A DNA stretch of 20,165 bases from positions 1 to 20,165 of the IMG/VR virus record IMGVR_UViG_3300032087_002061, one strand, 5' to 3'. The translations under genes and the position numbers were made by a program. Numbering within the stretch: position 1 is the stretch's first letter; every line of letters begins with the position of its first letter. Below, in pieces: positions 12,410-16,369 of this stretch. Source of the DNA: a virus. Under the pieces are notes generated by a model. That model did not search any database. It was given only the letters and a program-made list of their open reading frames with translations, and was not told where the DNA came from.

Positions 12410-12955
12410 TCAGAACTTCCAATCATCGTCGTCCGATGGTGCCGGTTGGGGTTCCGGCTGGGGTTCTGGGGTGACCTCCTGAACAGGAGCTGGTTGTGCC
12501 TCGGGCTTGTCTTTCCAACCCTTCAGCTCAAACTCTGGTACGCGGGTCGTACCCTTACCAATCGACACAGCCTTGGCACCATTAAATGCAACCATTGCCA
12601 TCTTGCCTTGGTTACTTGCCGCGCCGTTATGTACTTGCGGCCAAACATTCTCAAGACCCATCTTTGGTCCTGATCCTGTGCTGGTCCACTCTCTCCAACC
12701 GTAGTCGGACAGGTAAATCATCACGCTAAAACCGCGTTTGAAGTCTTGTCCTGGGTTTGGAGCCTTGACTCCAGGGCGCTCATCCCATACCCACTCAGGC
12801 GCTTGCCCTTCCATGATCTTTCCCCAGCCGGTCTTCAGACTGTCTGGGTCAATCCCCATCCCCTTGAACTCGATCTCGTCACCGTCGACATACCACGCAT
12901 TGACCGATGGCTTGAAGCGGAAATACTCCGCAGTTGAATCGCTAAGTCCTAGCAT
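12410..12955 (-). CDS. Phage ssDNA-binding-type protein with acidic aromatic tail
   Basis: The protein is 181 residues. The folded part (1-140) has a short beta-rich start with FRFKPSVNAWYVDGDEIEFK, then PGQDFKRGFSVMIYLSDYGW and a final beta stretch. Residues about 146-172 are a Pro/Gln/Glu-rich linker, and the protein ends SDDDDWKF. A folded domain, a flexible Pro/Gln linker and an acidic tip with a final Phe is the layout of SSB-type proteins, including T7 gp2.5 and bacterial SSB. Such proteins coat unwound DNA and recruit partners through the tip. The OB fold is not proven from sequence alone. It starts with GAGGAGAA upstream, overlaps the nuclease stop, and precedes the helicase-primase. 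Confidence 0.65.
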   Translation of the reverse strand: MLGLSDSTAEYFRFKPSVNAWYVDGDEIEFKGMGIDPDSLKTGWGKIMEGQAPEWVWDERPGVKAPNPGQDFKRGFSVMIYLSDYGWREWTSTGSGPKMGLENVWPQVHNGAASNQGKMAMVAFNGAKAVSIGKGTTRVPEFELKGWKDKPEAQPAPVQEVTPEPQPEPQPAPSDDDDWKF

Positions 12956-13352
12956 TCTCTTCTCCTGTTTCTCTGACTATGCCGCACCACAGCTCAAAGC
13001 TGATCTGTGCGACGCTGTTGATGTCATGTTGCTCATAGCAATCATGACCAGGGCCAAGCCAGTTGATGTACACCTGGATTGGCTTCCTGTCTTGCTTCAC
13101 AAAGAGGGCGGGACGCAAGCCTTTGACGGCCGCTTGTGCTTCACACTGAAGCCAGAAGAGCTTGATGTCTGCTGGTTTGACAGTTGCGTATCGCTTGCAT
13201 TCGATAGACCAACCCGGCACACCAGACAGATCGTCACCGCCCTGCTGGTATTGCTCCAGGTTGCGCTTGCACTCATACCCAAGATGATCTCGGATCAGGC
13301 TTGCGACCTCTCTCTCAAACGTCGCACCCTTGCGTCGGGACATTGCGCCCAT
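12942..13352 (-). CDS. PD-(D/E)XK nuclease, Holliday junction resolvase-like
   Basis: The protein is 136 residues. Catalytic residues are arranged as E (FEREVASLIRDHLG, about 13-26), then GGDDLSGVPGWSIECKRYAT (about 38-57), giving E ... D-L-x-G ... E-C-K. The G-x-D-L ... x-E-C-K layout is typical of small phage nucleases of the resolvase group. Its role is probably cleavage of branched DNA during replication and recombination, or breakdown of host DNA. ATG at 13352 has AGAGGAT upstream; a second ATG three codons in (MSRRKG) is an alternative. It is the first gene of the minus-strand replication block, divergent from the plus-strand operon. Substrate choice cannot be read from the sequence. 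Confidence 0.75.
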   Translation of the reverse strand: MGAMSRRKGATFEREVASLIRDHLGYECKRNLEQYQQGGDDLSGVPGWSIECKRYATVKPADIKLFWLQCEAQAAVKGLRPALFVKQDRKPIQVYINWLGPGHDCYEQHDINSVAQISFELWCGIVRETGEENART

Positions 13353-13973: not shown

Positions 13974-14104
13974 TCGAGGCATTTGTTTTCGCTGTTGTGG
14001 TCGTTGCTGTGACCATAACATTCAGCGCGTTGGCTTACCTGGCTGACGTTTTACTGCGACGCAAGACCGGACGCGGGATCGTGCCAGAGGATTACTACAA
14101 ATGA
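13970..14104 (+). CDS. Single-pass small membrane protein (44 aa)
   Basis: Read from the DNA: it begins MIEAFVFAVVVVAVTITFSA and continues LAYLADVLLRRKTGRG, ending in EDYYK. Residues 3-27 form one clear membrane helix, followed by a positive patch (RRKTGR), so the N-terminus is probably outside and the C-terminus in the cytoplasm. It overlaps the previous gene and the methyltransferase start by ATGA junctions. No family is recognised. It could be an early membrane-acting factor such as a superinfection-exclusion or host-takeover protein, which is a guess. Confidence 0.65.
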   Translation: MIEAFVFAVVVVAVTITFSALAYLADVLLRRKTGRGIVPEDYYK

Positions 14105-15210
14105 GGTACGGCTCTGTCTGTTCTGGCGTTGAAGCTGCAAGCGTTGCATGGGAACCACTTGGATTTGACCCAGTATTCTTTTCTGAGATCGAGCCGTTTC
14201 CTTCGGCTGTTCTTTCACACCACTGGCCGTCGGTTCCAAACCACGGCGACATGACACAATTTGAAGGTTGGAATTATGAGCAAGGATCAATTGACATTCT
14301 GGTCGGGGGAACTCCCTGCCAGTCTTTCAGCGTGGCGGGGCTTAGAGGAGGCATCGCTGACTCAAGAGGGAACCTCGCACTCACTTATTGCAGGATGGTT
14401 GATCGATTGCGTCCTCGATGGTGCGTTTGGGAAAACGTGCCTGGTGTCTTGTCATCAGGAGGAGGACGGGACTTTGGCTCCATCCTCGGGGCGATGGCTC
14501 AACTCGGGTATAGCTGTGCGTGGCGAGTGTTGGACGCTAAGAACTTCGGAGTGCCACAAAGACGCAGAAGAGTGTTTCTTGTCGGATGTTCTTCAGGAGA
14601 CTGGCGAGATCCTGCCTCGGTACTATTTGAGTCCGGTTGCGGCGGCAGGGATTTTGAAAAGAGCAGAAAAGAGAAACAAGAGGATGCCAAAAGAACTAAA
14701 GGAAGCATTGCTTACGACAAGCAAAGGCTTGGTGAGTACGGGTCAGGGAATGTAGCAAGTACAATCGCTGCGAGAGATTATAAAGATGCAACTGATTTAG
14801 TGGTACACGCAAACAATGTAGCGCCATCAATCACTTCATCTGGTCCACCTTATTCTCGTACTGGTAATGAGCGTGTCGAGTGTGATGCGCTTGTAGTGCA
14901 GTCAAAATCAGTGCATGAAGATCAGCAAGCTGATGTTCGCTTGCAAGATTGTTTCAATGCGGTCACAACAGGTGGCGGCAAACCAGGGCAAGGGTATAGC
15001 TGTCTGTTCAACCCGAGCTCCAACTATAAAGTACGCCGCCTGACTCCAGTAGAAGCAGAGCGATTACAAGGATTCCCTGACGGGCACACCGACATCGGTT
15101 GGAAGGGTAAGCCGACACCTGACTCGCACCGTTACAAGGCGATGGGTAACTCAATGGCGGTGCCTGTGATGCGTTGGATAGGACAACGAATTAAGGAGCA
15201 TGACGCATGA
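14101..15210 (+). CDS. DNA (cytosine-5) methyltransferase
   Basis: The protein is 369 residues and all key C5-methyltransferase motifs are present in order: motif I SVCSGVEAAS (5-14), motif IV GGTPCQSFS (69-77) with catalytic Cys73, ENV (111-113, motif VI), QRRRRVFLV (153-161, motif VIII), RRLTPVEAERLQGFP (312-326, motif IX) and GNSMAVPV (349-356, motif X). The stretch between about 175 and 305 is the target-recognition region. It transfers a methyl group from S-adenosylmethionine to cytosine, probably protecting phage DNA from restriction. No cognate restriction enzyme is seen nearby, so it looks like an orphan phage enzyme. Codons 59-218 also encode a second protein in the +1 frame. Confidence 0.95.
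   Translation: MRYGSVCSGVEAASVAWEPLGFDPVFFSEIEPFPSAVLSHHWPSVPNHGDMTQFEGWNYEQGSIDILVGGTPCQSFSVAGLRGGIADSRGNLALTYCRMVDRLRPRWCVWENVPGVLSSGGGRDFGSILGAMAQLGYSCAWRVLDAKNFGVPQRRRRVFLVGCSSGDWRDPASVLFESGCGGRDFEKSRKEKQEDAKRTKGSIAYDKQRLGEYGSGNVASTIAARDYKDATDLVVHANNVAPSITSSGPPYSRTGNERVECDALVVQSKSVHEDQQADVRLQDCFNAVTTGGGKPGQGYSCLFNPSSNYKVRRLTPVEAERLQGFPDGHTDIGWKGKPTPDSHRYKAMGNSMAVPVMRWIGQRIKEHDA
14276..14755 (+). CDS. Overprinted gene inside the methyltransferase (159 aa)
   Basis: An ATG at 14276 with GAAGG 8 nt upstream opens a 159-residue frame, +1 relative to the methyltransferase and entirely inside it. It begins MSKDQLTFWSGELPASLSAW. Later parts read EDGTLAPSSGRWLNSGI, WTLRTSE, ETGEILPRYYLSP and AAAGILKRAEKRNKRMPKEL. 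I recall unassigned proteins in other phages with D-Q-L-T-F-W-S-x-E-x-P-A-S, D-G-T-L-x-P-S-S-x-x-W-x-N-S-G, S-L-S-D-x-L-E-T-G-D-x-P-x-R-Y-Y-L-S and G-I-L-R-R-A-E-K-R-G-K patterns, lying over or beside cytosine methyltransferases. This one matches closely, which random frame reading would not give. The C-terminal part may be a helical DNA- or protein-binding segment. Function unknown. Confidence 0.7.
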   Translation: MSKDQLTFWSGELPASLSAWRGLEEASLTQEGTSHSLIAGWLIDCVLDGAFGKTCLVSCHQEEDGTLAPSSGRWLNSGIAVRGECWTLRTSECHKDAEECFLSDVLQETGEILPRYYLSPVAAAGILKRAEKRNKRMPKELKEALLTTSKGLVSTGQGM

Positions 15211-15428
15211 TCCGCACCATGTATCAAATGATTTACTTTGCAGGGGCCGAGCATCAGATCAAGTTCACCGACACGTCAGTTAATGACCCAGACGAAATGC
15301 CTGGTCTGCAACTGATCGACATAGACGGTCTCGATCAGCATCAACTTTCACCTGAGCTGTGGCAATACGCCACGCAGCAGATGGACCCAAACACAGCACT
15401 AACAGAAGAGGAAATGTTCCGATGGTAG
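15207..15428 (+). CDS. Small acidic protein between methyltransferase and exonuclease
   Basis: The protein is 73 residues, acidic, beginning MIRTMYQMIYFAGAEHQIKF and ending in TEEEMFRW. The middle has DPDEMPGLQLIDIDGLDQHQ. No family is recognised and no membrane segment is visible. It overlaps the methyltransferase stop by ATGA and the exonuclease start by 7 nt, so translation is coupled on both sides. It may be a cofactor of the exonuclease; this is based only on position. Confidence 0.65.
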   Translation: MIRTMYQMIYFAGAEHQIKFTDTSVNDPDEMPGLQLIDIDGLDQHQLSPELWQYATQQMDPNTALTEEEMFRW

Positions 15429-16369
15429 GGAAGGTCACAACAATCCAGAAGATGAGCGCGAGCCGTCTTCCGAACATCATGGGATACAGCCCGTGGTCCA
15501 CGCCCAATGACGAACTGGACATCACGATCCGCGCTCGCAAGGAAGGTGTCGATCATTACGACACTCAGATTGGTGAGGCCGCTGACTGGGGCAATGAGTT
15601 TGAGGATCAGATACTACGCACTGCTTCACAGCGCCTTGGGCTGAAGAAACTCAAGCTGAACTACCCAGAGCCGTACATCTATAAAGATCTGCTCCAGGCT
15701 TCTCTGGATGGCGGCGCAATGGCTGATGGCCTGGTCATCAATACCGATGTCACCAATCACATCTACGTGATGAACTCAGATGACACGATCACACTGGAGG
15801 GAAAAGGCGTTCTGGAAGCCAAGCTCACTCGCGTCGCTCCAAGGGATGTTCCTGATCCCTACCGTGGTCCGATACAGTTACAGGGACAAATGCTCTGTAC
15901 GGGCGCTCAGTGGGGCGTGATCGCTACTTTGTACCAGGGAGTCGAGTTGTACATCTACGTGTACAAGGCTGATTATGAAATGCAGAAAAAAATCATCATG
16001 GCGTGTTCTGACTTTGAGCGCAGGGTACGTGATGAGGATTGGTATCCCGCCATGTCAGCGACTGAGGCTGCTGATATGAAGGGCGACGCACCAGACGATG
16101 TCGAGATGGATGCGGATGACGATCTCAAGGAAAGGATCGAGCGTCTGGCGCACATCCGCACAGAGCTGAAGGCGTATGAAGCACTGGCCTCTGACCTACA
16201 GCTTGACATCATGAATGCGATGGGCGAGGCGAACATCTGTCATGCAGGACAGTACAAGATCACCTGGCCGGTGCGTAAGGTCAAAGCAAAACCGGCACAA
16301 GTCAAAGAAATCCCAGCGGTCGAGGAACACTGGGCCAGAGCAAAGACACTGAAGCTGGAGGAGTTATGA
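15422..16369 (+). CDS. YqaJ-type recombination exonuclease
   Basis: From ATG at 15422 (inside the stop of the upstream gene) the protein is 315 residues. YqaJ/lambda exonuclease features are seen in order: MSASRLPNIMGYSPW, then WGNEFEDQILR (first Glu), LQASLDGGAMADG (Asp), GVLEAKLT (E-x-K catalytic pair), IQLQGQMLCTGAQWGVIATL (conserved Gln) and a C-terminal helix after YVYKADYEMQKKI. The family digests one strand of duplex DNA from an end and works with an annealing protein. No annealing protein (Beta, RecT or Erf) is obvious in the window. The C-terminal 90 residues (RIERLAHIRTELKAYEALAS) form a likely coiled coil. A longer start at 15359 lies within the upstream gene. Confidence 0.9.
   Translation: MVGKVTTIQKMSASRLPNIMGYSPWSTPNDELDITIRARKEGVDHYDTQIGEAADWGNEFEDQILRTASQRLGLKKLKLNYPEPYIYKDLLQASLDGGAMADGLVINTDVTNHIYVMNSDDTITLEGKGVLEAKLTRVAPRDVPDPYRGPIQLQGQMLCTGAQWGVIATLYQGVELYIYVYKADYEMQKKIIMACSDFERRVRDEDWYPAMSATEAADMKGDAPDDVEMDADDDLKERIERLAHIRTELKAYEALASDLQLDIMNAMGEANICHAGQYKITWPVRKVKAKPAQVKEIPAVEEHWARAKTLKLEEL

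Follow-up and report, generated by a model that had tools for sequence, protein, structure and literature searches.

The window analyzed here is a virus record of 20,165 bases that carries terminase, head-tail connector, primase/helicase, RusA-like, and RecE-like genes together with a gene for a C5-cytosine DNA methyltransferase. A 159-codon open reading frame lies entirely inside the methyltransferase gene in the +1 register, which raises the question of whether this stretch encodes one protein or two and, if two, what the second protein does. A sequence-only reading of the window had proposed a conserved overlapping pair, in which one sequence makes both the methyltransferase and a companion. 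We analyzed the pair in the window and in viral and bacterial relatives.

Methyltransferase gene and nested reading frame

We assigned the product of the 0 frame (alpha) to the C5-cytosine DNA methyltransferases on the basis of its match to PF00145 (2.7e-58) and the ordered motifs I, IV, VI, VIII, IX, and X, which were read from the sequence in a single frame. The nested frame (beta) spans motifs IV, VI, and VIII of alpha. The features of the locus are listed below in window coordinates.

14101–15210, plus strand: alpha, C5-cytosine DNA methyltransferase, 369 aa (Pfam DNA_methylase 2.7e-58, residues 2–365; TIGR00675 dcm 3.2e-56)
14252–14254, plus strand: in-frame TGA, upstream limit of the +1 frame, which is open from 14255
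14263–14267, plus strand: Shine-Dalgarno-like GAAGG, 8 nt before the beta ATG at 14276
14276–14755, plus strand: beta, nested +1-frame gene, 159 aa (phrog_16143 4.1e-8; open-frame statistics)
14314–14322, plus strand: alpha motif IV (PCQ), within the overlap, from the sequence
14431–14439, plus strand: alpha motif VI (ENV), within the overlap, from the sequence
14519–14710, plus strand: conserved C-terminal segment of beta, residues 82–145, alignable from P1 to Streptococcus phages
14554–14571, plus strand: alpha motif VIII (PQRRRR), within the overlap, from the sequence
14627–14731, plus strand: predicted helical hairpin of beta, residues 118–152 (AlphaFold2, pLDDT about 90)
15031–15081, plus strand: alpha motif IX (VRRLTPVEAERLQGFPD), in the alpha frame beyond the overlap, from the sequence

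The position, register, and length of the 159-aa frame, its ATG with GAAGG at 8 nt, and all of the beta protein motifs quoted in the sequence-only reading were present. A RusA-like resolvase gene precedes the methyltransferase gene on the opposite strand (12942–13352) and a RecE-like exonuclease gene follows it (15419–16369), which places the alpha/beta pair within a recombination/replication module.

Start signal of beta

At the position of GAAGG in the window, the relatives mostly carry AGGAG(T), and in 51 of 54 relatives a start codon (ATG or TTG) follows a sequence that shares at least 4 of 6 positions with AGGAGG. The start usually lies directly before the beta motif QLTFW, and the Shine-Dalgarno and start region is often AAGGAGTGG within the methyltransferase's own codons. 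The conserved Shine-Dalgarno sequence and start codon support a predicted internal initiation of beta. Alternatively, beta might not be a separate protein, and the +1 frame might be reached by ribosomal frameshifting from alpha to give a fusion of the alpha N-terminus and beta. Similar layouts are seen in mycobacteriophage alphas and at loci L186, L233, L347, and L150 (motifs IX–X in a +1 ORF). Frameshifting is nevertheless very unlikely in view of the start signals conserved directly before the QLTFW at the beta N-terminus and the in-frame stop found directly upstream of the beta start in some relatives.

Evidence for dual coding of the overlap

The main sample consisted of 80 viral loci fetched with the alpha protein only, a query that is blind to the +1 frame. 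All 80 contained a homologous +1 ORF in the same register, which was roughly 45–81% identical and had no stops over the matched stretch. Near-duplicates were removed, and the remaining 54 non-redundant loci were scored over window codons 60–199 against a null in which synonymous codons were permuted within each gene, so that the protein and the codon usage were preserved. The +1 frame was open in 54 of 54 relatives, whereas about 1.1 were expected, and 0 stops were observed compared with 233 ± 11 expected (other alternative frame, 387). Stops in close relatives, which the earlier reading had said would speak against the gene, were therefore absent from this set. For the window alone, codons 60–199 remained open in 8 of 300 synonymous shuffles.

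The same-codon probability at conserved residues was 0.60 in the overlap (expected 0.33; p = 9e-16), whereas the values on either side were 0.41 and 0.38 (expected 0.36 and 0.34). Synonymous freedom is lost exactly within the overlap and not outside it, and the reduction in synonymous change that had been set as a check on the proposal is a sharp drop.

The variabilities at codon positions 1/2/3 were 0.22/0.17/0.57 upstream of the overlap, 0.37/0.28/0.61 downstream of it, and 0.50/0.36/0.37 in overlap codons 160–217. In this distal part the third positions of alpha are less variable than the first, which indicates that the constraint there falls on the hidden frame. The BLOSUM score over codons 160–217 was 2.13 for beta and 1.73 for alpha, compared with 0.01 for shuffled sequences. 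The nearest relative (L020) was 68% identical to the window in alpha and 80% identical in beta over codons 160–200; the differences there comprised 14 at first and 3 at third codon positions. Among seven P1-type dmt genes, the variable sites at positions 1/2/3 numbered 21/12/12 in the second half of the overlap, compared with 3/3/17 before the overlap and 79/61/127 after it. A codon-phased pattern of this kind would not be expected from RNA structure or nucleotide bias. The overlap had been described as the part of the methyltransferase least free to vary; this description holds for the first part, which contains motifs IV–VIII, but not for the distal part (codons about 160–217, the linker after motif VIII), which is variable in alpha and better conserved in the +1 frame.

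The openness and conservation of the +1 frame could in principle merely echo a conserved methyltransferase protein or a nucleotide bias, since alpha is well conserved over motifs IV–VIII, frame-shifted copies of conserved proteins look alike, and the shuffled +1 BLOSUM score lies slightly above zero. As a specificity control, we examined 27 full C5 methyltransferases from bacterial genomes, of which 23 were without the beta family and 4 matched it. All 23 contained 1–11 stops in the +1 frame, and none matched the family significantly (a single marginal hit, E 0.04). Encoding a C5 methyltransferase is thus not enough to produce the +1 gene. The 4 matching controls were prophage-type genes from genomes that had entered via the beta family. 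An artefact of this sort is contradicted by the 23 negative controls, the codon-permutation null, the reversed codon-position variability, and the variable linker in which beta is more conserved than alpha, and we regard its probability as practically negligible. The conserved overlapping pair proposed from the window is thus borne out by the open frames, the synonymous drop, the reversed variability, and the bacterial controls. On these comparisons the stretch is almost certainly dual-coding for alpha and beta, and the substitution patterns demonstrate purifying selection on beta.

Distribution of the nested family

The sequence-only reading had linked the beta motifs to unassigned phage proteins next to or over other cytosine methyltransferases, and a family lying over such genes was recovered by tblastn, by profile searches, and through matches to phrog_16143. 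The tblastn search with beta gave 83 phage records, and more were obtained with other family members as queries. The phages bearing beta include P1 and P1-like phages and phages of Vibrio, Mycobacterium, Caulobacter, Roseobacter, Pseudanabaena, Streptococcus, and Clostridioides. Beta lay in the +1 frame of an annotated methyltransferase in 14 of the first 14 loci examined. With the C-terminal profile alone, genome_contigs gave 522 matching stretches and viral_contigs at least 598. Judging from these matches, hundreds of phages, P1 among them, share the nested arrangement, and beta is found across many phyla in both phages and prophages.

All 265 +1-family ORFs from the loci collected at that stage, a set that includes 160 loci sought with beta alone, were overlapped by a methyltransferase ORF. 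The frame relation of beta to alpha was +1 in 299 of 300 cases, the single frame-0 case being L150. A single enterobacterial family was covered with 295 genomes; 21 of these gave matches at E ≤ 0.01, the strong ones being nested except at L358, the sole exception to nesting, where beta overlaps a truncated alpha. With L358 excepted, no clear standalone copy of beta was found in genome_contigs, viral_contigs, phages, P1-like plasmids, or the 295 enterobacterial genomes. The sequence-only reading would have taken a lack of homologues outside methyltransferase genes as evidence against the gene. Essentially every copy was indeed nested; this does not refute coding, and it fits a partner that is useful only with the enzyme.

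Sequence and structure searches with beta

No significant Pfam, NCBIfam, or PDB family match to beta was obtained in sequence and fold searches. Beta matched the phrog_16143 HMM, as did 19 of 19 family members at E ≤ 0.01. This PHROG (139 aa), labeled "DNA methyltransferase", appears to hold the nested beta protein; its label describes the overlapped gene, whereas the beta protein itself has no methyltransferase motif. The helical hairpin was the only confident part of the AlphaFold2 model of beta (pLDDT below 65 elsewhere), and a second run, on another member of the family whose alignment was deeper, again gave only the C-terminal hairpin with confidence. A Foldseek search of the predicted model against the PDB returned nothing significant. 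The top match in the viral library (E 1.1e-3) was an unnamed 81-aa protein of Mycobacterium phage Thibault, which is probably an annotated piece of the nested-beta family, and the second match (E 0.055) was a methyltransferase entry. A weak match of beta to the PADLOC model MTase_II (PDLC03324) was set aside because this 408-position methyltransferase model also matches ordinary C5 enzymes.

Comparison with known methyltransferases

The pair resembles M.EcoHK31I, which has a large and a small polypeptide, the small one reportedly encoded inside the gene of the large one in an alternative frame; beta of the window likewise lies wholly within alpha, in the +1 frame. M.EcoHK31I (YGGCCR) was described as a two-polypeptide C5 methyltransferase by Lee, Kam and Shaw (1995), and its motif IX is present only in the small polypeptide (PMC3404938). 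The window differs in that motif IX (15031–15081) is in alpha and beta has none, and beta therefore does not supply motif IX. The window pair would be a variant of the M.EcoHK31I type in which the large polypeptide keeps motif IX, and the small subunit of M.EcoHK31I and beta of the window are likened by their described layout.

The nested orf14 of Streptococcus phage MM1 1998 (DQ113772) is annotated in GenBank as "C5 methyltransferase beta subunit", with no functional evidence given. Both orf14 and gp40 of Streptococcus phage P0091 share the position, the +1 register, and a homologous C-terminal segment with beta of the window, whereas the streptococcal betas are without the last helix-like part (RRAEKRGK...) of the window type.

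M.AquI (CYCGRG) is a split C5 methyltransferase of two polypeptides, the second of which comprises the distal variable region and motifs IX–X (PMC3404938). The likeness is that two polypeptides belong to one C5 enzyme; in contrast to M.AquI, motifs IX and X of the window are in the alpha frame, and beta duplicates no part of alpha. The mycobacteriophage relatives L005 and L312–L314 look M.AquI-like in addition.

The m5C enzyme of pneumococcal phage SpSL1 methylates RCGRC in vivo, as determined by bisulfite sequencing (PMC6755750), whereas the SpSL1 sequence record writes the site as RCRGC. We detected an unannotated beta in the m5C gene of this phage (L469:1404–1898; family profile 2e-28, streptococcal-beta profile 1e-62). 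Since the enzyme is active and its gene carries beta, a locus of the nested-beta type is active. The dmt gene of P1 also carries a nested beta, and the P1 record gives cytosine activity only as "perhaps".

Proposed function of beta

In the mechanism that we propose, the 0 frame would give a complete C5-cytosine methyltransferase (alpha), and ribosomes would start at the internal Shine-Dalgarno sequence and ATG (14263/14276) of the same mRNA to give the 159-aa beta from the +1 frame. Beta would bind alpha as a small subunit and be needed for, or strongly improve, folding, DNA binding, or activity, and the alpha-beta pair would methylate the phage DNA and shield it from host restriction. By sequence and by analogy, beta is probably a subunit of the alpha enzyme that functions like M.EcoHK31I beta, because the MM1 1998 annotation and the M.EcoHK31I precedent point in this direction and beta occurs together with alpha in essentially every locus found. 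We infer the physical alpha-beta partnership, the requirement of beta for activity, and the anti-restriction purpose. Several findings count against a subunit role. Alpha already has every catalytic motif, so that beta is not obviously needed; beta has no fold match and is mostly predicted at low confidence; alpha is intact at L354, a rare exception with an in-frame TGA in the C-terminal segment of beta; and the short and long nested-beta families, the latter described below, give no significant match to each other.

Beta might instead be a real protein with its own job, such as inhibiting a host restriction or defense enzyme or timing methylation, which arose by overprinting and stays in the enzyme gene because escape is difficult. 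The purifying selection on beta, which is in places stronger than that on alpha, the open beta frames in mycobacteriophages L005, L312, and L313, in which the alpha ORF stops after motif VIII, and the lack of a recognizable methyltransferase motif or Pfam domain in beta agree with such a role. A useful independent protein should, however, sometimes occur duplicated elsewhere, and no clear standalone copy was present among the 265 ORFs; the further enterobacterial and plasmid loci behaved likewise, with the one exception overlapping a truncated alpha. The precedents of M.EcoHK31I and the MM1 annotation also favor a subunit, and an independent role appears possible but less likely. The suggestion in the sequence-only reading that the companion regulates the enzyme or counters host restriction gained no particular support, and a subunit role after M.EcoHK31I, a precedent absent from that reading, is better supported.

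A literature search on overlapping genes in phage cytosine methyltransferases did not find this arrangement described. One characterized enzyme and a few annotations were known before; the spread of the family, its presence in P1 dmt, and an alpha complete with motif IX were not found described in the literature searched. The balance of evidence tilts somewhat toward the view that this widespread and essentially always nested family in motif-complete phage C5 methyltransferases is a new auxiliary subunit, acting on activity or specificity and distinct from a displaced motif IX, or an independent protein. The same-strand dual-coding region of 150 codons is shared by P1 and by phages of Streptococcus, Mycobacterium, Caulobacter, and cyanobacteria. 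Its support as an overlapping gene in bacterial viruses is strong, and most annotations examined miss beta. If the proposal is true, an unnoticed second product would have accompanied P1 Dmt and many other phage C5 methyltransferases that have been cloned or annotated. Any cloning or deletion of alpha takes the enclosed beta with it, so that past work could not separate the two. The question of whether the orphan C5 methyltransferases of phages truly work as single proteins, the cytosine activity of P1 being one example, is directly testable now.

A second, longer nested family

We found a second nested family, phrog_1008, at L380–L384 and L389–L468. In 80 of 80 viral loci it was a +1 ORF nested in a C5 methyltransferase ORF of divergent sequence. 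The ORF length was 220–390 aa, mostly 260–390 aa (once 789 aa). By the tests used for the short family, this region was also dual-coding, with 72 of 72 non-redundant loci open over about 312 codons compared with 0.42 open expected. The third positions are nearly frozen where beta encodes LNPAHSRWLMGFPPEW, a segment that resembles motif IX. In carrying a segment like motif IX in its beta, phrog_1008 corresponds to the layout published for M.EcoHK31I, whereas the window type is shorter and without motif IX. PHROG 1008 matched some short betas (best 2.8e-6), and an hhalign comparison of the short and long profiles was not significant. Both families overlie the same alpha motifs, and the similarity between them may be induced by this.

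Loci with unusual frames

The alpha ORF stops after motif VIII in the Omega-like mycobacteriophages L005, L312, L313, and L314 and also at L186, L233, L256, L347, and L128. Motifs IX–X of these loci are in a second ORF, usually +1, consistent with a split enzyme, a frameshift, or decay. In Schatzie (L314), an HNH gene is inserted within the methyltransferase, and the annotation gives the intron boundaries as undetermined. At L150:2662–3939, beta is continuous with motifs IX–X, the C-terminal part of the methyltransferase itself, in a single +1 ORF. A methyltransferase entry of 521 aa in the viral structure library can be aligned with beta and is possibly of the L150 kind.
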